Positions 1 through 55,169 of a DNA stretch of 55,169 nucleotides are shown in pieces. Origin of the DNA: Bacteroidales bacterium (GTDB taxonomy: Bacteria; Bacteroidota; Bacteroidia; Bacteroidales; UBA932). A model generated the notes under the pieces. That model made no database searches. It saw nothing but the letters and a program-made list of their open reading frames with translations, and was not told the origin of the DNA. Within the stretch, counting starts at the first letter, position 1. Each line of letters opens with the position of its first letter. Both the position numbers and the translations under genes were made by a program. The stretch lies in contig JAFSPG010000011.1 in NCBI GenBank assembly GCA_017443025.1, positions 1 through 55,169 of the forward strand, given 5' to 3'.

Positions 1-24
1 ATGCGATCTCTCAAGAAATATATT

Positions 25-134
<110 letters not shown>

Positions 135-141
135 TTTTCGG

Positions 142-179
142 GACTCCGGTTGACGAAAGTCAATCGGAGTCTTTTTTTT
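142..179 (+). terminator. Rho-independent terminator of the rRNA operon
   Basis: A 13-bp stem with a GAAA tetraloop (GACTCCGGTTGAC / GTCAATCGGAGTC, one G-U pair) is followed directly by eight T residues. It lies just after the 5S rRNA and would end rRNA operon transcription. Confidence 0.92.
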
Positions 180-345
180 GTGTCCGACGGACACAAAAAC
201 CGAAGAACAGGCAGCTACGCTTATACGTCACCCATCCCCTAAATCCCCTTCCTCGGGAAGGGGACTTGCTATCGACCTTCGGTCTCAAAACAGAGGAATA
301 TTCAGTTTGAAAAAGCGAATAGTTCCCCCGGTAATGGACAAAATG
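180..345. other. Non-coding spacer between 5S rRNA and glycosyltransferase gene
   Basis: No gene is supported here. The stretch holds several short palindromes: GTCCGACGGAC near 182-192, a 9-bp stem TCCCCTTCC/GGAAGGGGA near 243-264 and GACCTTCGGTC near 275-285. These resemble the GC-rich inserts of the intergenic element at 8334-8451. They may be an intergenic repeat remnant or unrecognised RNA structure. Confidence 0.5.
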
Positions 346-43579: not shown

Positions 43580-46500
43580 TTACAGGTCAGCGACGTTGCC
43601 GCCACCATTGGTGAAATTGCTGTCGGAGCAAAGACCGTAAGTGTCGGTGTAGTGGCAATTCTTAATCGTACTGCCGGCAACTGACTTGGCAGCTACGTCA
43701 CCGTCTACACAAGCGTTGGCGCCGTGTGTAATCGTGGTCAGATAACTATAGCAACCGTCCAGGACGGTTCCGGCATCCAGGGTGCAAACTATACCGCCGA
43801 CTCCTTGTACCTGTGAACTCTCGATGGATGTTCCGCTAAAAGTACAATTGGTGGCTGTAGAATTGACAAGCCATCCTGCAATACCTCCAATATAATAACC
43901 GGAACCTCCGCCGTAACCGTTGGCATTGGAAGCATTTGTGATATCCACATACTCGCCATAGCCTACAGCACCTCCGTTATATCCGCGGCGACCGCCTGTA
44001 ATAGTTGCTCCGCTGTCATGGTTATTAGTTACATTGGAAATGGAAATCCTGTTGTCTGCGGTACCAAGAACGAAACCTGCTATACCGCCCTCGAAGGTCG
44101 AACCGACTTTGGTGACGGTATTGTTAAACTGATTGTTCCAAAGGACACCGGTATTAGTGCAACCCTCAATGCTGGAAGCACCGTCAAGATAAGCTACGAT
44201 GCCGCCTACAAACATGGTTTTACCATTCTGCTTGGTAGGATTGCCGCCATGGATATAGCCTGAGTTAGAGCAATCGCTGATAGTTACGTCACTTTCAAAA
44301 GTTTTTCCAAGGATACCACCGGTGTAGTTATCAGTGTGAGCAGCATTGTTGGCGGCATAAAAATAGACTTCACCCTCATTCTCACAGCCGCTGATAGTAG
44401 CAGAACCTGCACTTCTAACTTCGCCTACAATACCACCCATGTACAGGAAACTAACGACATTAGTACTGCTAGTCTGGAACGTTACTTTACCGGTATTCGT
44501 CACGTTTTGAACAGAAGCTTGAGCGCTACCAACAACACCGCCGAAACGAAGACCGGCAGTGGTGACTGTAGTACCGTTATAACTGTCCAGAATATTGCCG
44601 CTATTTGAGATACTCTTACCTGCACCGCCGTTGATGGCTTTAGTCGTCAGGCCTATAACACCACCAAACTTAAGCTCAACGCCTGCAGCGTTTTCAGTGC
44701 GGCTCAGAGCGATGTTACCGGAATTGCTGATTTCGCTGACAGTACCATCGTTATTGCCGATGACTCCGCCGACTTCACCGACGCGCATATTGTACGGTGA
44801 AATGCCTGTTGCTGAGGCAAAAGTAAGGTTGCCTGAATTTGAACAGGAAGAAACCGTTCCGAGATTGTATCCGACAACACCACCTACTTTCTGGATTCGG
44901 GGCGTGGACCTGGATTCAATTAAGCCTTCATTTATACAACCAGATACCGTTGCGCTGGCCTTGTTGAGACCTACGATGCCTCCAAGGTCATAGTAACGGG
45001 AATTGGCATCTGCTGCAGTTCCGCTGGTGCCGGTAGTGAGAACGAAGTTCTGCGTGGTTGCGAGGTTGGTGCAATTCTCTACCGTTCCGGCGTTCTGCCC
45101 TGCAACACCACCCTGTGCCATATGGTAGGCGAGAGTCGTGTGGTTGAAGAGTGTACCTGTATAAGCAGTTTCATTTGCCATGGTAACTTCCTTGGTAGAG
45201 GTGGCGGTAACATTGCAATTGCTGACTGTGCCGGCAGCAACGCTACCGACGATACCGCCGACAAACAAGTAAGGATTGTTCTTGTCTGTGCTGGAAACGC
45301 GTGCTTCCGTTTCAAGAGTTCCGTTGAAATCGGAGTCTTTGATAACGCCGGCAGCATTTGTAATTTCTCCAACGAGGCCACCGATATGAGTTAACTTTCC
45401 GGTAACGCTGAATTCAGCGGGAACTACAAGATCTCCTGCATAAATACAGTCTTCAACGGAGCCAATGGTAATACGTCCTACAAGACCGCCCAATGCTGTA
45501 ACCTGAGTTATGTCTCCGGCAGCAATGCTGACATCGGCGTTTGAGGTAACGCCTTTCAGAAGCCCCTTGTGGTATCCAACCACAGAACCGAGATCAGCTT
45601 CTGCGGCATTTCCGTGAGTAAAGGAGAAAACGCAGGAATTATCTACAGTGAGATTACGAACTACGCCGCCATCACCAGTTGCAGTGAAGATAGGAACAGT
45701 GGCTTCAAGCCCGCTGATAGTGTGGTTGTCACCCTCGAAAACACCATTGAAGTAATAATCCTCGGTATCTCCTGCGGCTATTTTCAAGCCGATACCACCA
45801 GTAGCGTTAAATGCTGCGGAAGAGGTTGCGTCGAAGTTGATGTCACTTGTAAGAGTTGCGACGAGGTCTGAATCAAATACCTTGTTATTGTAAGCCGTTG
45901 CGAAGTCGATGAGGTCCTGGGCGCTGTTGATTTCGACGCCGAGTTCAGTGGCGGTAGGAACGAATTCGAACTCAGGCATGGTGTACATATGGCCGGCCTC
46001 GAGTGTGATGGAAGCGGTCTTGCTCTTAGTCATGACGTGGCCGTTGACATCCTGGACGATGACATCGAAGCCCTGGGAGTAAGTTCTTGCAGGGACTACA
46101 ACGTGGTAGACGCAAGGAGCACCGGTAGAGGTTGCGAGGTTCTTGACTGCGCGGACTACTTCGTCAGCGGCACCGTACTGACCGGAGGTCAGTGTACCGT
46201 TCTGGTAGTCGATGGTGAACTCACCGGAGACCTGTTCGCCGTTGCGGCCTTGGAACCTGACGGCGACGAGATTATCTTCGTCGGGGGAGGTAGCAGCCCT
46301 CTTGACCTGAATCTTCACGATGGCGCAGAGGCTCGAAACTGTAATCGAGCTGCCGTCGGCTGAATAACCTGCCATAGGGAGCACTCCGTCAGCGATTCCG
46401 CCTTCTTTGTATTTCTGACTTGCAGGAAGGGTTACGTGATTTTCATCTGTGTAGATGCTGGCGGGATATAGTACGTTGTAAGGAGTAGTGAGCGGATCGT

Positions 46501-46774
46501 CAAAAGTGAAGTCTACGCTTGTGCATTCTGCTTCAACGTTCTCAAGAGCAGCAGATGTTACGCCGTTGACTGCAATCTGATCGCCGTCCGACCAGAAAAG
46601 CTGCCTGTGACCCTGAGCGTCGGCGGGGCCCATGGAAACCATGGTCTGAGGAGCGACGCCTACGGTGAGGACGGTTTTGCCTGTAGTGATTTCAGGCTTT
46701 TCGGTGAGCGCTTCCTTTGCGCAGCTTGCGAGCAGCACTGCCACTGCAAGGATGGAGAAATAACGTGCTTTCAT
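43580..46774 (-). CDS. GLUG-repeat surface lipoprotein with fimbrillin-like N-terminus
   Basis: A 1064-residue lipoprotein (MKARYFSILAVAVLLASC, Cys18). Residues about 30-290 are the fimbrillin-like module (LFWSDGDQIAVNG, TPYNVLYPASIY, GEQVSGEFTIDYQN). From about 330 some 17 units of GLUG type follow, each near GGIVG...GTVSNCTNTG. GLUG units build a beta-solenoid seen in adhesin-like surface proteins. The C-terminus is NGGGNVADL. The ATG at 46774 lies 1 nt after the stop of a 46-residue peptide gene, and a longer in-frame start is rejected. It is a paralogue of the gene at 51014. I infer adhesion or host/glycan contact. Confidence 0.9.
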   Translation of the reverse strand: MKARYFSILAVAVLLASCAKEALTEKPEITTGKTVLTVGVAPQTMVSMGPADAQGHRQLFWSDGDQIAVNGVTSAALENVEAECTSVDFTFDDPLTTPYNVLYPASIYTDENHVTLPASQKYKEGGIADGVLPMAGYSADGSSITVSSLCAIVKIQVKRAATSPDEDNLVAVRFQGRNGEQVSGEFTIDYQNGTLTSGQYGAADEVVRAVKNLATSTGAPCVYHVVVPARTYSQGFDVIVQDVNGHVMTKSKTASITLEAGHMYTMPEFEFVPTATELGVEINSAQDLIDFATAYNNKVFDSDLVATLTSDINFDATSSAAFNATGGIGLKIAAGDTEDYYFNGVFEGDNHTISGLEATVPIFTATGDGGVVRNLTVDNSCVFSFTHGNAAEADLGSVVGYHKGLLKGVTSNADVSIAAGDITQVTALGGLVGRITIGSVEDCIYAGDLVVPAEFSVTGKLTHIGGLVGEITNAAGVIKDSDFNGTLETEARVSSTDKNNPYLFVGGIVGSVAAGTVSNCNVTATSTKEVTMANETAYTGTLFNHTTLAYHMAQGGVAGQNAGTVENCTNLATTQNFVLTTGTSGTAADANSRYYDLGGIVGLNKASATVSGCINEGLIESRSTPRIQKVGGVVGYNLGTVSSCSNSGNLTFASATGISPYNMRVGEVGGVIGNNDGTVSEISNSGNIALSRTENAAGVELKFGGVIGLTTKAINGGAGKSISNSGNILDSYNGTTVTTAGLRFGGVVGSAQASVQNVTNTGKVTFQTSSTNVVSFLYMGGIVGEVRSAGSATISGCENEGEVYFYAANNAAHTDNYTGGILGKTFESDVTISDCSNSGYIHGGNPTKQNGKTMFVGGIVAYLDGASSIEGCTNTGVLWNNQFNNTVTKVGSTFEGGIAGFVLGTADNRISISNVTNNHDSGATITGGRRGYNGGAVGYGEYVDITNASNANGYGGGSGYYIGGIAGWLVNSTATNCTFSGTSIESSQVQGVGGIVCTLDAGTVLDGCYSYLTTITHGANACVDGDVAAKSVAGSTIKNCHYTDTYGLCSDSNFTNGGGNVADL

Positions 46775-46775
46775 A

Positions 46776-46916
46776 TTACCATTCCTCCTCTTCTTCTTCA
46801 ACATAAGGAAGCTGGAAACTGAGGAAGGAATCCTCTGTGAGGACATCCTCTACCCATACATCGGGAGCTTCGTACCCGACGCGATGGTCATGAATTCGTG
46901 AATTGATTGTCTTCAT
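46776..46916 (-). CDS. Small acidic-tail peptide preceding the first GLUG gene
   Basis: A 46-residue ORF, starting MKTINSRIHDHRVGYEAPDV and ending in a run of Glu then Trp. It has no signal peptide. The GLUG ORF starts 1 nt after its stop, a sign of translational coupling. It matches the peptide gene before the second GLUG gene in layout (GYE motif near residue 15, Glu-rich end with Trp). The GAG-GAG codons create AGGAGG 9 nt before the GLUG ATG. Similar short ORFs sit before surface genes in other Bacteroidales as far as I recall; function unknown. Confidence 0.7.
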   Translation of the reverse strand: MKTINSRIHDHRVGYEAPDVWVEDVLTEDSFLSFQLPYVEEEEEEW

Positions 46917-49339: not shown

Positions 49340-50152
49340 ATGCGTACGACAGAATCGGCATCCCTGTATGACGGTCTCGATAAAATGACCACGTTCGAGA
49401 TTCTGCAGGATATCAACAACGAAGACAAGATGGTCCCGGAGGCTATCACCGGGAGTATTCCCCAGATTGAAAAACTGGTGGATGCCATCGTTGAGAGAAA
49501 GGGAAGAGTTTTCTATATGGGCGCCGGAACCAGCGGCCGCATCGGCATCACTGACGCCTCTGAAATTCTTCCCACCTACGGTGTGGGCGACAAATTCATC
49601 GGCATCATCGCCGGCGGCGACGGCGCCATCCGTACTCCCGTCGAGGGCGCCGAAGATGACCCTGTACAGGGCTGGGAAGACCTTAAGGCCTTCGACCCTA
49701 CCCCGGCAGACACTTTAATCGGTATTTCCGCCTCCGGTGGAGCGCCTTATGTACTTGGCGCCATCAAGGAGGCCCGGGCACACGGCCTCCTGACATCTTG
49801 CATCACCTGCAACGAAGGCTCTCCCATGGAAGAAGCCAGCGAAATCCCCATCGTTACCGTCGTCGGCCCCGAGTTCGTAACCGGAAGCACCCGAATGAAG
49901 AGCGGCACCGCAGCCAAGCTCATCCTGAACATGATTTCCACCGCCGTAATGATTCGCCTCGGGCACGTAAAGGGCAACAAGATGGTCGACATGCAACTGT
50001 CCAACAGCAAGCTCGTCGACCGTGGCACCCGCATGATCATGCAGGAAACCGGCCTCTCCGACTATGCCGCCGCCAAATCCCTCCTCCTCGCCCACGGCTC
50101 CGTCCGAATGGCCGTTCAGACATACAAGAACAAGGGAACAGATAAGGCTTGA
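49340..50152 (+). CDS. murQ: N-acetylmuramic acid 6-phosphate etherase
   Basis: MurQ cleaves the lactyl ether of MurNAc-6-phosphate to give GlcNAc-6-phosphate and D-lactate. The 270-residue SIS-domain protein has YMGAGTSGRIGITDASEILP, in which Glu75 matches the catalytic Glu83 of E. coli, plus GISASGGAPYV near 137 and GSTRMKSGTAAKLILNM near 181. It is shorter than E. coli MurQ (298) because it lacks part of the C-terminal helices. No dedicated MurNAc transporter is in view, so the substrate may enter by another carrier. Confidence 0.96.
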   Translation: MRTTESASLYDGLDKMTTFEILQDINNEDKMVPEAITGSIPQIEKLVDAIVERKGRVFYMGAGTSGRIGITDASEILPTYGVGDKFIGIIAGGDGAIRTPVEGAEDDPVQGWEDLKAFDPTPADTLIGISASGGAPYVLGAIKEARAHGLLTSCITCNEGSPMEEASEIPIVTVVGPEFVTGSTRMKSGTAAKLILNMISTAVMIRLGHVKGNKMVDMQLSNSKLVDRGTRMIMQETGLSDYAAAKSLLLAHGSVRMAVQTYKNKGTDKA

Positions 50153-50157
50153 TCGGT

Positions 50158-50240
50158 GCAGACGTCCCAAAATCTGGGACGACGGCGCCGAAATAGGGCA
50201 AAAACAGAGCAGACGTCCCAAAAACCGGGACGTCTGCGCC
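50158..50240. repeat. Two 32-bp direct repeats, each a hairpin
   Basis: Copies at 50158-50189 and 50209-50240 share GCAGACGTCCCAAAA, then CTGGGACG or CCGGGACGTCTGC, then GCGCC. Each copy folds (GTCCC/GGGAC; the second extends to a 10-bp stem). They lie between the convergent murQ and recombinase genes and may act as a bidirectional terminator or be a mobile intergenic repeat. Confidence 0.75.
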
Positions 50241-50242
50241 GC

Positions 50243-50878
50243 TTATAGAGTATTTGTCAAGTCTAGTTTACAGAATCGGTAATGATTGGATTCGATATAG
50301 CGAGCCAGGGTGTTCCGGTTGACTTTACAAAGCCGGGCTATTTTGCTTAAAGGCAGGCCTTCCTGCAATTTCTTCGAAATTAAGTCTATTTTTGGATAGA
50401 GCTTGCTCTTGCGGGGGTCGTTCTTGCTTCCTTTGGGTCTTCCCAATTTCATGCCCTCGGCCTTTTTGCGCTGCAGCGCTTCTTTTGTCCTCTGGCTTAT
50501 TAGATTACGTTCGATTTCGGCCGACAGCCCGAAGGCGAATGCCAGTACCTTGCTTTGAATCTCATCGCCAAGGCGATACGCCTCCTTTATGGTCCATACC
50601 GTACACTGCTTTGTCATACAGAGGTTGAGTATCTCCATAATCATAAAAAGATTGCGCCCCAGCCGGGAAAGCTCCGAACATATTATAAGATCTCCCTTCC
50701 TGACTCGCTTCAGTAGATTCCCAAGTTCCCGCTTGTCGTAATTCCTGGTGCCGCTGATGGTCTCTTCAATCCAGTCGTCGATATGCATCGCCCTCCCGGA
50801 GCAAAAATTCTTGATTTCAAATCGCTGATTCTCGACAGTCTGCCTGTCGCTGCTGACTCTGATATACCCGTAAATCAT
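50243..50878 (-). CDS. Serine site-specific recombinase (Hin/Mpi-like DNA invertase)
   Basis: A 211-residue serine recombinase. The catalytic N domain has YIRVSSDRQT with the nucleophile Ser near 9-10, SELSRLGRN (Arg pair) near 69-77 and the E-helix ending ERNLISQRTKEALQRKKAEG near 132-151. A short C-terminal HTH begins LGRPKGSKN and has LPLSKIARLCKVNRNTLARYI. This is the layout of Hin, Gin and the Bacteroides Mpi invertase that flips surface-gene promoters. The size suits an invertase or resolvase, not a large serine integrase. It stands 64 nt from the GLUG gene terminator and shares its strand. Confidence 0.9.
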   Translation of the reverse strand: MIYGYIRVSSDRQTVENQRFEIKNFCSGRAMHIDDWIEETISGTRNYDKRELGNLLKRVRKGDLIICSELSRLGRNLFMIMEILNLCMTKQCTVWTIKEAYRLGDEIQSKVLAFAFGLSAEIERNLISQRTKEALQRKKAEGMKLGRPKGSKNDPRKSKLYPKIDLISKKLQEGLPLSKIARLCKVNRNTLARYIESNHYRFCKLDLTNTL

Positions 50879-51013: not shown

Positions 51014-54000
51014 TTACAGGTCAGCAGCGTTGCCGCCACCGTCGGTATAGGATCCGGAGCCGATGATAGTAGCCGTTACGGTAGTTCCTGCAGTTGGCGT
51101 ATCTACTGAAGGTTTGTAGTGGCAATTCTGAATCGTGTTGTTTGAGCCCGATACGCCAACAATGCCACCGACTGGTCTCCCACTATTGCTTAAGGTGAAC
51201 TGCGTTGCATAACAGGAACAGCCATCAACCATACTGTTGGACATATTGCCCACAATCCCACCTAGTCCGGTACTATTCTGTATCTGGTTCGCCTTAATTT
51301 GGCTTCCGTTGTATAGGCTGCCGTTGATAGTGCAGTACTCAGCTTTACCCACAATGCCTCCTGCACCGCGGGCTGCGCATCCACCGCCAATAATACTTTC
51401 GATAGTACAATTACTTATCTGGGCATATTTGGCATAGCCGGCAACACCACCAATCCAGCCGCGTGTGGCGCTCATTGCTGCAGAGGTATTGACAGTGCAG
51501 CCAATAGTTCCGCCGATTTCAATCTGAGCCTCATTTGTGCCTTCTATATAGCCGGCGATACCACCGGTTAGTGTAGTGCTGCCAATGCTATCATTATTGC
51601 CACTCTGAGTACTGGCAGTACTGCCGGTATTTGAGCAGTTCAGTATTTTGCAAGCTCCCTTCATATAAGCCGCAATACCACCAATGTAGAACGAATTGCC
51701 AGCGGCAGAGCTGCTGTTTCCACCTGATATTGCACCAGTATTGGAGCATCCCGTAATTGTGATATCCTGCTCAGTTTTACCGAGGATACCGCCAACATAA
51801 AGATCATTCATAGCAACAGCTGCTGCGGTTATGGCCATATTGATGGCACCGCCATTGTTCTTGCAGTTCGAGATTGTTCCAGGAGCGTCCATGCGCCCAA
51901 CGACACCAGAAACAATCAAATCATGTATGAGACCTTTGTTGTTGGAAACATCCACGTTGCCGCTATTGTCGCAACCTGTAACGGTGACATCAGACTCATT
52001 GATGACATACCCCACGATGCCACCGAGGTAGTTGCCACTATGGCTGTCGGTGCTTTCGGTGCATGCGATGAAATTAATACGTACACGTCCGCTGTTATCT
52101 GCATTATCGACCGTTCCTGAGCCTGTCATCTTACCGATGATACCCCCAATCTTTATATCCGTGACGGGAACCGTGCTGGCACCCGCGGCGGTACGTACTT
52201 CACCGCCATTAGTGCAGTCCTTGACCGGATTGGTGGCGTCAGTGAGGCCCACGATACCGCCAATGTAGTTGCCGCTATAGGATATATTGGCTGGAAGGTA
52301 GAAGTAAACCTGTGCGGAGTATTCAACACCTGCATCCACTACATTTTCGCAGTTTTCGATGGTGCTCAAAGCGCCCGACGCCCTGCCTGCTATACCGCCC
52401 AAATATACTTTACTGGCTCCCAAGGTAGGGCTCCCATTCCAGCGGAAATAAGTTCGGCCGGTATTCTTTGCATTTTTGACGGCAGCCTCAGTAAGACCAA
52501 CGATACCGCCGAGATTATAACCTTGAAATTGCTGCGTAAAAGTGGGAGAATGATAGACCTGGCCAGAGTTGGTAATATCTTTGGATGCTCCGCCAACAAC
52601 AATTCCTTTATTGTAACCGATAACGCCTCCAATACATTCTAATGAATGTTCATCATCTTCCATGGATGAAATCTGAAGATCCGCCGTATTATGTACGTCT
52701 GAAACTTTATTGTTTGCGATGTTTTCTCCTATAACACCACCAAGATAAACATATCGCCCTGCTCTTGCGCTTTGCCCGGTTGTCATTTGGTTAACGGCAG
52801 CATTGTTGGTGCAATTGGAAATTGTGCCGGCATTATAGCCTGCAATGCCGCCAAGATCCTGATTCTTGGGATTGGAACGATGCTGCACTGTTCCATTGTT
52901 CGTACATCCGGTGACAGTTCCGGTTGCATTGACTTTGCCTACAATACCGCCAGACTTCATATAGCAGCAATTATCGTCAGTCCTATAAACAGAGCAAGCA
53001 ATGGTCGCGGCATTGGTGCAGGAAGACACTGTTCCGTTGTTCAGCTCGCCGACTATGCCGCCTACGGCCGAATTATATGCAACAGTTGTCTTATTAACAA
53101 TTTTTCCATTGAAACCGCTATACGCGCTAGCCTCATCTGCGTGGTCTGCTGTAGAGTTTGAGGAGGAAACGCTGGCTCCACCATCAACAAATCCAACCAC
53201 ACCGCCAATTATCAAATAGGGATTAGCAGTATCTGTAGAAGTTATTTCAGCTGCGTTACTTATGGCACCCTTGAAATATGAACCGGTTATATTGGATGAG
53301 GAAGTCTTTATTCTGCCCGCCAAGCCACCAATGATGAGTTTCTTGGTAGACTCGAATCCGTCCGGAGTAGAAATAAGGCCTGAATACTCACTGCCATTCT
53401 GGATAACGCCACCATTGGCGTATCCAACAAGCCCGCCCAACGACGTCATATTAGTTACACCTGTTTTGTTGGCCAGACTGACATCAGCTGCTACTTTGAC
53501 ATTGTCGATTGTGCCTTTGTGATACCCGACAATGGCGCCAAACATACCCTCGGCATCGTTTTTATGGGTAAATGTAAAAGAGCAGTCATCGTTCAAAGTG
53601 AAATTCTTTACATCACCATTGGTCCCAGTATATGCAAATAGTGGAACAATAGCTTCGAGGCCGGAGATGGTATGATTGCCTCCGTCGAAAATGCCATTGA
53701 AATAGTTAGTGTCGTCGTGTCCATTGTCAGCGGTACCTATACCGCCGGTTTCATTGAATTGAGCACTTGTGGTGGCATCGAAAGTGATGTCAGCAGTGAC
53801 GGTAGCGACGAGGCTGCTTCCGAGTTCAGCATACTCATTATTGTTGTATGCGGTGGCGAACTGGATGAGTGTTTCTGCGCTATTGATTTCAACTCCGATT
53901 TCTGTGGCAGTCGGGACGAATTCAAATTCCGGCATTTTGTACAGTTTGCCGGCCTCTCCCTTCCATGAGGAAGCCTTGCTCTTTGTCATTATATGGCCGT

Positions 54001-54757
54001 TGACGTCCTGGACAATGATATCGAAACCATTCTCATATGTTTTTGCGGGAACAACCAGATAATATTCGATAGCGGTAGAGGTCGAGGTTGCCTGGCTCTT
54101 TACTACACGGACTTCCTGTTCAGCAGTGCTACCAGTCGCCGTGGCAAGGGTGATAGGGTCTTTTGTGTAATCAATGCTGAACGTCCCGTTCACCTTTTCG
54201 CTATTTTTACCTTTGAAACGAACAGCTATGATATTATCTTCGTCAACAGTACCACTTCTTTCCTCAGCATGAGCTGCAGTTTCGCGTTTAATCTTAATCT
54301 GCAAAATGGCGCAGAGGTGATTGATTGTTGCGCTTGACCCATCTTCGCTGTAACCGGCCATAGGTAACATGCCGTCAGCGACGTTGCCTGATTTGTAGGA
54401 CTGAATGGCAGGAAGGGTAACGTTCATAGCATCATTCCATATCGATGCCGGATATGCCAAAAGATATGGTGTATTGAGGAGCCCTTCAAACGTAAAAGTG
54501 GCGCTGGTCTCTCCGGGTTCCAGCCCGCTGAGCGCCACTGACGCTACGCCATTTGCGGCAATCTGATCGCCGTTAGACCAATAAACTGTGCGGACACCTT
54601 CTACAGCATCACTCATATAGGTTTTACCTTCGTTAGGAAGACCGACGGTAAGGACGGTTTTGCCCGTAGATACTTCAGGCTTTTCTGTGAGCGATTCCTT
54701 TGCGCAACTTGCCAGCAGCACCGCCGCCGCAAGCATTGAGAAATAACGTGCTTTCAT
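51014..54757 (-). CDS. Large GLUG-repeat surface lipoprotein with fimbrillin-like N-terminus
   Basis: A 1247-residue lipoprotein (MKARYFSMLAAAVLLASC, Cys18). The first 40 residues are almost identical to those of the protein at 43580. The fimbrillin-like module (about 30-300) has YWSNGDQIAANG, TPYLLAYPASIW and KVNGTFSIDYT. By eye about 22 GLUG-type units follow from about 350 (GGIVGELNNGTVSSCTN and variants). The C-terminus DGGGNAADL matches its paralogue. The ATG at 54757 is 1 nt after the stop of a 49-residue peptide gene. Its promoter sits in an inverted repeat, so its expression may switch. I infer a phase-variable adhesin-like protein. Confidence 0.9.
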   Translation of the reverse strand: MKARYFSMLAAAVLLASCAKESLTEKPEVSTGKTVLTVGLPNEGKTYMSDAVEGVRTVYWSNGDQIAANGVASVALSGLEPGETSATFTFEGLLNTPYLLAYPASIWNDAMNVTLPAIQSYKSGNVADGMLPMAGYSEDGSSATINHLCAILQIKIKRETAAHAEERSGTVDEDNIIAVRFKGKNSEKVNGTFSIDYTKDPITLATATGSTAEQEVRVVKSQATSTSTAIEYYLVVPAKTYENGFDIIVQDVNGHIMTKSKASSWKGEAGKLYKMPEFEFVPTATEIGVEINSAETLIQFATAYNNNEYAELGSSLVATVTADITFDATTSAQFNETGGIGTADNGHDDTNYFNGIFDGGNHTISGLEAIVPLFAYTGTNGDVKNFTLNDDCSFTFTHKNDAEGMFGAIVGYHKGTIDNVKVAADVSLANKTGVTNMTSLGGLVGYANGGVIQNGSEYSGLISTPDGFESTKKLIIGGLAGRIKTSSSNITGSYFKGAISNAAEITSTDTANPYLIIGGVVGFVDGGASVSSSNSTADHADEASAYSGFNGKIVNKTTVAYNSAVGGIVGELNNGTVSSCTNAATIACSVYRTDDNCCYMKSGGIVGKVNATGTVTGCTNNGTVQHRSNPKNQDLGGIAGYNAGTISNCTNNAAVNQMTTGQSARAGRYVYLGGVIGENIANNKVSDVHNTADLQISSMEDDEHSLECIGGVIGYNKGIVVGGASKDITNSGQVYHSPTFTQQFQGYNLGGIVGLTEAAVKNAKNTGRTYFRWNGSPTLGASKVYLGGIAGRASGALSTIENCENVVDAGVEYSAQVYFYLPANISYSGNYIGGIVGLTDATNPVKDCTNGGEVRTAAGASTVPVTDIKIGGIIGKMTGSGTVDNADNSGRVRINFIACTESTDSHSGNYLGGIVGYVINESDVTVTGCDNSGNVDVSNNKGLIHDLIVSGVVGRMDAPGTISNCKNNGGAINMAITAAAVAMNDLYVGGILGKTEQDITITGCSNTGAISGGNSSSAAGNSFYIGGIAAYMKGACKILNCSNTGSTASTQSGNNDSIGSTTLTGGIAGYIEGTNEAQIEIGGTIGCTVNTSAAMSATRGWIGGVAGYAKYAQISNCTIESIIGGGCAARGAGGIVGKAEYCTINGSLYNGSQIKANQIQNSTGLGGIVGNMSNSMVDGCSCYATQFTLSNSGRPVGGIVGVSGSNNTIQNCHYKPSVDTPTAGTTVTATIIGSGSYTDGGGNAADL

Positions 54758-54758
54758 A

Positions 54759-54908
54759 TTAATCCCAGTCCTCCTCTTCATCTTTGATTTCAGGTGGAAC
54801 GACACTAAGTAAAACAAAACGAGCCAATTTTAGCTCCAATACCCTGCTGGAAGGCGTTTCGTACCCCTTCCTACAGCCTAAATCATTGATTACTAATTTA
54901 TTTTTCAT
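54759..54908 (-). CDS. Small acidic-tail peptide preceding the second GLUG gene
   Basis: A 49-residue ORF starting MKNKLVINDLGCRKGYETPS and ending KDEEEDWD. It has no clear signal peptide; the middle is hydrophobic (LARFVLLSVVPP). It shares with the peptide at 46776 the GYE(A/T)P motif and the acidic, Trp-containing tail, and also stops 1 nt before its GLUG gene. Its first 17 codons lie in the 100-bp inverted repeat and recur on the other strand at 55117. Function unknown. Confidence 0.7.
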   Translation of the reverse strand: MKNKLVINDLGCRKGYETPSSRVLELKLARFVLLSVVPPEIKDEEEDWD

Positions 54909-54955
54909 TTTGTGCAATATTGAATTAATCGTACTAATTAGTCCGTCAAAGGTAC
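54856..54955. repeat. Left arm of a perfect 100-bp inverted repeat
   Basis: The reverse complement of this arm equals 55070-55169 base for base. The arm holds the -7 box, the ~30-nt leader with the palindrome ACTAATTAGT, and the first 17 codons of the peptide gene. The match stops at 54956, while the outer end is unknown because the window ends there. Confidence 0.95.
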
Positions 54956-54976
54956 TAATTTTTTTTCAAATAACAA
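54947..54976 (-). promoter_or_regulatory. Promoter of the second peptide-GLUG operon, split between arm and spacer
   Basis: On the minus strand TTG (54976 to 54974), a 19-nt spacer and TACCTTTG (54954 to 54947). The -7 box is inside the repeat arm and the -33 element is inside the unique spacer. Confidence 0.75.
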
Positions 54977-55069
54977 GATTTCAGCAACAGAGTGCAAATA
55001 TTTAGTAATCAACAGGTAATAGAAGGCGCTGTGAGGCCAAAAAATAGCCCTGTACTGCTGCAATTTAAG
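54956..55069. other. 114-bp spacer between the inverted repeat arms
   Basis: No ORF is supported. The left end supplies the -33 TTG used leftwards. The right end has CCCTG and nothing like TTG at the distance expected for the rightward -7 box at 55071-55078. Inversion of this segment would place the -33 element before the other arm. Confidence 0.65.
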
Positions 55070-55169
55070 GTACCTTTGACGGACTAATTAGTACGATTAA
55101 TTCAATATTGCACAAAATGAAAAATAAATTAGTAATCAATGATTTAGGCTGTAGGAAGGGGTACGAAAC
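55070..55169. repeat. Right arm of the 100-bp inverted repeat, reaching the window edge
   Basis: Mirror copy of 54856-54955. It contains TACCTTTG at 55071-55078 and the start of a plus-strand peptide gene. The window stops within or at the end of the arm. Confidence 0.95.
55117..55169 (+). CDS. Start of a divergent acidic-tail peptide gene (partial)
   Basis: ATG at 55117 opens the same 17 codons as the peptide at 54759 (MKNKLVINDLGCRKGYE) and runs off the edge. By analogy a third GLUG-type lipoprotein gene would follow, transcribed rightwards. Its -7 box is present but no good -33 element is in place, so in this orientation it is probably silent. Confidence 0.5.
   Translation, partial: MKNKLVINDLGCRKGYE

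Follow-up and report, generated by a model that had tools for sequence, protein, structure and literature searches.

A candidate Mpi-type invertible promoter upstream of a peptide-GLUG lipoprotein unit in a Bacteroidales genome

Inverted arms and promoter elements at a contig end

The window analysed here (55,169 nt) makes up contig C10 in full; the Bacteroidales genome to which this contig belongs is 1.66 Mb in size, assembled into 19 contigs and 93.5% complete. Its last 314 nt consist of two inverted arms of 100 nt, 100% complementary to each other and separated by a spacer of 114 nt. An ATG, a leader and the box TACCTTTG are present in each arm. The leftward box lies ahead of a short peptide ORF that precedes a gene for a large GLUG-repeat lipoprotein, and the gene for a DNA invertase lies just beyond. 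The features of the locus, with the basis for each, are as follows.

50243-50878, minus strand: 211-aa serine recombinase assigned to the master DNA invertase Mpi family (NF009949, PF00239)
51014-54757, minus strand: gene for a 1247-aa GLUG-repeat lipoprotein, which the switch would probably control (PF07581 Glug; lipoprotein-like N-terminus by eye)
54759-54908, minus strand: ORF for a 49-aa peptide, preceding the GLUG gene (ORF list; similar ORFs in relatives)
54856-54955, no strand: left arm, with leader, -7 box and peptide ORF start (inverted-repeat search)
54925-54934, minus strand: left candidate Mpi-type site GTACGATTAA (sequence resemblance, relatives)
54947-54954, minus strand: -7 box TACCTTTG of the leftward promoter (sequence)
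54956-55069, no strand: 114-nt spacer between the arms (inverted-repeat search)
54974-54976, minus strand: TTG of the -33 element, at 19 nt from the leftward -7 box (sequence; the block recurs in the genus)
55070-55169, no strand: right arm, reaching the contig end (inverted-repeat search, toy assembly graph, relatives)
55071-55078, plus strand: rightward -7 box TACCTTTG, with no TTG at 19-21 nt (sequence)
55091-55100, plus strand: right candidate Mpi-type site GTACGATTAA (sequence resemblance, relatives)
55117-55169, plus strand: peptide ORF start that mirrors the left peptide start and is cut by the contig end (sequence)

A previous, sequence-only reading of this DNA had described the arms as perfect inverted copies, each carrying a -7 box, a leader and the start of a peptide ORF, with a TTG at 19 nt for the leftward box only. 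The inverted-repeat search and a recheck of the sequence confirm all of this, including the spacing of the leftward element (box 54954-54947, TTG 54976-54974). As the right arm runs out to the contig end, the arm length holds only as assembled. In the window, no other inverted repeat scores 13 or more (exact seed of 11, 60-500 nt between arms), and the best in seven other stretches of the same genome (about 103 kb) scores 16; the exact seed of 11 leaves the scan of the genome blind to short sites such as those of the relative G349 described below. No other copies of the arm were detected in the genome or in 60 relatives beyond the window itself. Arm DNA occurs in the genome only at this place.

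The one-sided arrangement of the -33 element arises in 10% of 20,000 mononucleotide shuffles of the spacer (TTG at 19-21 nt), and the spacing asymmetry alone is therefore weak evidence. A query with the arm region yields a match at E ≤ 0.01 in 74 of 400 genus genomes, including the window's own. Leaving the window's own genome aside, 73 genomes have a match; by our count it covers the stretch from -33 to -7 (near 54947-54978) in 45 of them, and in 36 of those 45 the identity is at least 87%. Most of these matches have E-values of 0.001-0.01 and are individually weak; the pile-up on a single 30-nt stretch is strong. Its surroundings were inspected in eight loci, where it stands upstream of different genes. 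Given this pile-up before different genes, the left promoter, which spans the edge between arm and spacer, looks real and typical of the genus.

The recurrent block of about 30 nt (TTG, A-tract, TACCTTTG; window 54947-54978 and 45 other genomes) also bears on a crossover point that was considered and dropped, the GTAC at the inner arm edge. The idea came from the relative G113, in which TTCGGTACTAAGG is repeated ahead of a peptide-GLUG unit, and it was abandoned once TTAGTACC proved to belong to the promoter block shared across the genus. The outer arm edge was likewise set aside as a recombination site, since it offers only a short resemblance by eye. Overall, the query of the 400 genus genomes, longer than the one used to look for arm copies, returned mainly matches to signal-peptide regions and promoters. 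Weak leader-like matches lie in L213-L217 and L219, except L215, which gave no match in that search. In L213 a 20-nt, 80% AT-rich pair overlaps the match; the AT-rich stretch there holds 23 pairs, this one included, and a scan of five loci (L213-L216 and L218) detected no inverted repeat at the leader-like match in L214-L216.

Short ORFs with an acidic, W-containing end precede related lipoprotein genes in 22 of 27 upstream regions judged by eye, the exceptions being L173, L176 (cut by its contig), L180, L024 and L025. These regions were drawn from 32 loci (L022-L025 and L165-L192), with L186-L190 left out. A second peptide-GLUG unit lies on the same strand of the window at 43580-46916; its N-terminus is 61% identical to that of the first unit, and no such repeat stands upstream of it. 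In G113 (L218:1380-1575, G113:C10), an 18-nt, 89% inverted repeat with a TTCGGTACTAAGG core stands upstream of a peptide-GLUG unit and encloses a seemingly complete TTTG-N20-TAACTTTG promoter by eye, making it a possible second type of inverton.

A neighbouring Mpi-family invertase and candidate recombination sites

The product of the gene at 50243-50878, which was aligned with solved serine recombinases, scores 328 bits against NCBIfam NF009949 (cut-off 272) and 113.5 bits against the Resolvase domain PF00239, over its cut-off. The C-terminal helix-turn-helix PF02796 falls just below its cut-off of 23.8 (21.4 bits, E 0.00028). This is the sole PF00239 match in the genome, and the three tyrosine-recombinase matches are all on other contigs. 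The gene is located just downstream of the GLUG gene, 4 kb from the arms; the chance of a given spot lying within 4 kb of one gene in 1.66 Mb is about 0.5%, a figure calculated after the fact. Relatives of the invertase (E ≤ 1e-40) occur in 82 of 300 genus genomes, including this one. It is the likely candidate enzyme for an inversion. Just after the gene, two imperfect 49-nt direct repeats (50142-50241) contain inverted GGGACGT/ACGTCCC stretches that appear terminator-like by eye.

The two candidate sites, each reading GTACGATTAA, span 176 bp from outer end to outer end. Passages of PMC8375218 describe a 10-bp repeat, GTTCGTTTAA, that flanks invertible capsular polysaccharide (CPS) promoters of 183-186 bp in Bacteroides intestinalis (PVR7-12) and within which transcription begins. 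The window resembles that system in three respects: the sites agree at 8 of 10 positions, the segment is of similar length, and the repeat would lie about where transcription should start. It differs in that the B. intestinalis promoters serve capsule loci, whereas the window has longer identical arms and a copy of the -7 box on both sides. Of 5,000 shuffles of the arm, 23% contain an equally good match to GTTCGTTTAA, so this resemblance alone is not significant. Moreover, matches to GTTCGTTTAA within two mismatches show no enrichment in the window (24 observed, 42 expected), and a third copy of GTACGATTAA sits within a gene at 43662-43671. The form GTWCGWTTAA, which was picked after seeing the arm, arises in 0.34% of arm shuffles.

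We then searched 400 genus genomes for paired half-sites, TTAAWCGWAC-N146..176-GTWCGWTTAA. Only three carry the pattern, namely the window's own and those of the relatives G349 and G414, while a control with the pattern written backwards gave 0 in all 400 rows. In the window's own genome the pattern occurs only here, with no further site pair detected by this search. The inner half of the window's site differs from the near-palindromes (like TTAAACGTACGTTTAA) of G349 and G414.

Both candidate sites are outside both -7 boxes, the arm edge falls between -33 and -7, and by its sequence the complete promoter TTG-N19-TACCTTTG sits between the two sites. The earlier reading had placed the inversion boundary within the promoter, cutting it in two. 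A crossover at the candidate sites would instead keep the -33 element and both -7 boxes inside the flipping segment, so that the whole left promoter would flip uncut, in the manner of known invertons. The unusual feature, if crossover occurs at these sites, would then be the second -7 box at the other end of the segment. With identical arms, a flip yields the same product wherever the crossover falls, and sequence alone cannot place it.

Our preferred explanation, to which we assign a probability of roughly 0.65, is that the locus carries an Mpi-type phase-variable promoter before the peptide-GLUG lipoprotein unit. The segment at 54925-55100 (176 bp) would carry one complete promoter, which in the assembled orientation points leftward to the peptide-GLUG unit (ON). 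The Mpi-family invertase encoded beyond the lipoprotein gene would recombine the two sites containing GTACGATTAA and flip the segment. After the flip, the left unit would keep a -7 box without a -33 element (OFF), and the complete promoter would face whatever lies to the right. We infer all of these steps: the action of Mpi here, the sites as crossover points, the flipping and the content to the right.

One could instead regard the arms as a fixed inverted duplication of the gene start that never flips, given that flipping at this locus is itself deduced from sequence. The neighbouring Mpi-family gene and the site-like pair argue against a static duplication, which we consider highly improbable.

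Related elements and known invertible promoters

The elements of G349 and G414 are both exactly 183 bp long, intergenic, and located before DUF3575 operons. The second, recovered like the first by the site-pattern search, lies as follows.

L239:3989-4171 (G414:C15:21988-22170): G414 element, 183 bp

These elements share with the window the half-site pattern, a -7 box inside the segment, a position upstream of surface-type operons, and an Mpi-like gene on the contig of the element. Specifically, the segment of each relative contains a TAACTTTG box at a distance of 31-32 nt from the segment end, compared with 22 nt in the window. The G414 box has a TTG at 19 nt, and the G349 box has none at 16-24 nt. 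The G349 segment ends 1 nt before its DUF3575 gene, and the G414 segment lies between leftward and rightward DUF3575-domain genes with its promoter pointing left. Both relatives differ from the window in serving DUF3575/DUF3868 operons and in having repeats of only about 15-27 nt by eye, with different outer flanks; like the window, they are known from sequence alone. The Mpi-like match of G349 is distant and short (38% over 109 residues), and the segments tested from both genomes fall below the NCBIfam cut-off. With its single promoter between divergent DUF3575-type operons, the G414 element is a cleaner candidate for a two-way switch than that of the window.

Thus, the central proposal of the sequence-only reading, an invertible promoter switch, appears likely in light of the Mpi-family invertase 4 kb away and the Mpi-like sites in both arms, and it gains from the similar elements in two relatives, one of which has its promoter between divergent surface operons. 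The design that it attached to the switch fares less well. It envisaged two divergent peptide-GLUG units, of which the right-hand one was not found in the genome as assembled; a gap in the metagenome-assembled genome (MAG), in which such a unit may be missing, could explain this. None of the 14 places in the genome with an N-terminal homologue is where the cut right-hand unit would lie.

Invertible promoters of the Mpi kind are already known in gut Bacteroidales. Those of B. fragilis (Coyne et al., 2003), as described in papers citing that work, likewise involve an Mpi-family serine invertase, inverted repeats, a promoter within the flipping segment, and surface structures as targets. They differ in their repeat, ARACGTTCGTN as quoted in PMC8375218, whose core ARACGTTCGT is absent from the window arms within two mismatches, and in their target, which is a capsule operon rather than a GLUG lipoprotein unit; a further difference is the 100-nt length of the window arms as assembled. 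A passage of PMC11892184 gives inverton repeats as usually 10-40 nt, compared with the 100-nt arms of the window. Excerpts of PMC4747536, PMC5903667, PMC3090145 and PMC10939037 were also drawn on. Our literature search returned no description of this type of locus. In the sapA inversion switch of Campylobacter fetus, whose repeats include gene starts, a single promoter stands between divergent genes with common 5' ends; this switch uses a different recombination system and a much larger segment than the window would.

No related GLUG gene lies at any of 109 Mpi loci (some representing the same place twice, with flanks of 1.5-8 kb), and the link between Mpi and GLUG therefore rests on the window locus. 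Among the inverted repeats of 80 named Mpi loci, no promoter inverton was recognised. Repeats near the invertase in L084, L096, L101 and L130 read like coding sequence by eye, and L121 has AT-rich repeats after its invertase gene.

If the preferred explanation is true, Mpi-type phase variation extends beyond capsules to GLUG lipoprotein units and DUF3575-type surface operons. Its reach would be a large Bacteroidales genus, in which a simple site pattern would find such switches by sequence.

The contig end and the right arm

For 55101-55169, the last 69 nt of the right arm, three origins are considered: a genuine second unit, a composite of the two orientations, and an artefact. In three cases two contig ends of the genome have exactly 141 nt in common, and other pairs share 139, 135, 132 or less; the final assembly k was therefore probably 141, which exceeds the arm length. 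A toy unitig graph was built with k = 141. With a single orientation the contig runs on, whereas a mixture of both orientations, or a complete fold-back molecule, stops it at 54955. A stop at 55169 takes either two right flanks that differ or a dead end; placed after 100 nt, a dead end gives back the observed contig. The earlier reading had attributed the contig end to an assembler undecided between orientations; given that such a mixture should end the contig at 54955 rather than 55169, the end by itself is no sign of mixed orientation.

These results weigh on the full form of the earlier reading, a design in which the arms are real over at least 100 nt, two divergent peptide units exist, and the one -33 element in the spacer is passed between their -7 boxes. 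This design has flipping in common with the preferred explanation but departs from it on two points, the right flank and the crossover. The perfect arms and the single TTG at 19 nt agree with it, G414 offers a precedent of one promoter between two divergent DUF3575 operons, and the toy contig does stop at 55169 when two alternative flanks follow the right arm. Nevertheless, the second unit was not found in the genome, the repeats of the relatives are far shorter, the candidate sites lie outside the -7 boxes, and mixed orientation ends the toy contig too early. We therefore regard this design as unlikely. The same holds, slightly more so, for a strict either/or switch of two surface units in which long arms each bring a -7 box, a leader and the first codons and the losing side keeps an idle half-promoter.

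A variant of the preferred explanation holds that the inverton is real and has a shorter repeat, and that the outer right arm is left flank contributed by flipped molecules. Such a composite accounts for the 100% identity, coding sequence included, and it accords with the short repeats and different outer flanks of the relatives and with the right flank not having been found. The unitig model would end this contig at 54955, so pruning or low coverage must be assumed. We entertain the composite tentatively, at less than even odds.

Alternatively, the arm might be a technical fold-back, produced by chimeric reads or a local assembly error at the contig end, with no inversion at all. The arm does end exactly at the contig end, the toy dead end reproduces the contig, and the right flank was not found. 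However, one of 38 contig ends in the genome folds back (at least 12 nt within 600-1000 nt), and it lies 4 kb from the only Resolvase-domain gene, and its arms carry an Mpi-like site pair whose 176-bp span is near the 183 bp of the relatives. A purely technical origin thus seems rather improbable. The contig end is compatible with either the composite or the artefact only with an added assumption.

Contigs can end at the far arm of Mpi-linked repeats, as two of 60 contig ends at Mpi loci elsewhere do (59 plus L091). Both fold-back ends (the right ends of L098 and L135) lie in a TaqI_C specificity-domain gene, at the far repeat copy. A gene like that of L098 adjoins Mpi relatives in 48 of the 80 named Mpi loci. 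A contig end within a peptide ORF in G166 was considered and rejected, as G166 has no good second copy (best other E 0.23). The locus also cautions that where a contig ends in a perfect inverted repeat next to an invertase, part of that repeat can stem from assembly, and its length is not to be taken as biology without reads. At the opposite end of the contig, the start of the window (1-200) has 135 nt in common with one end of contig C6 and resembles a 5S rRNA gene by eye.
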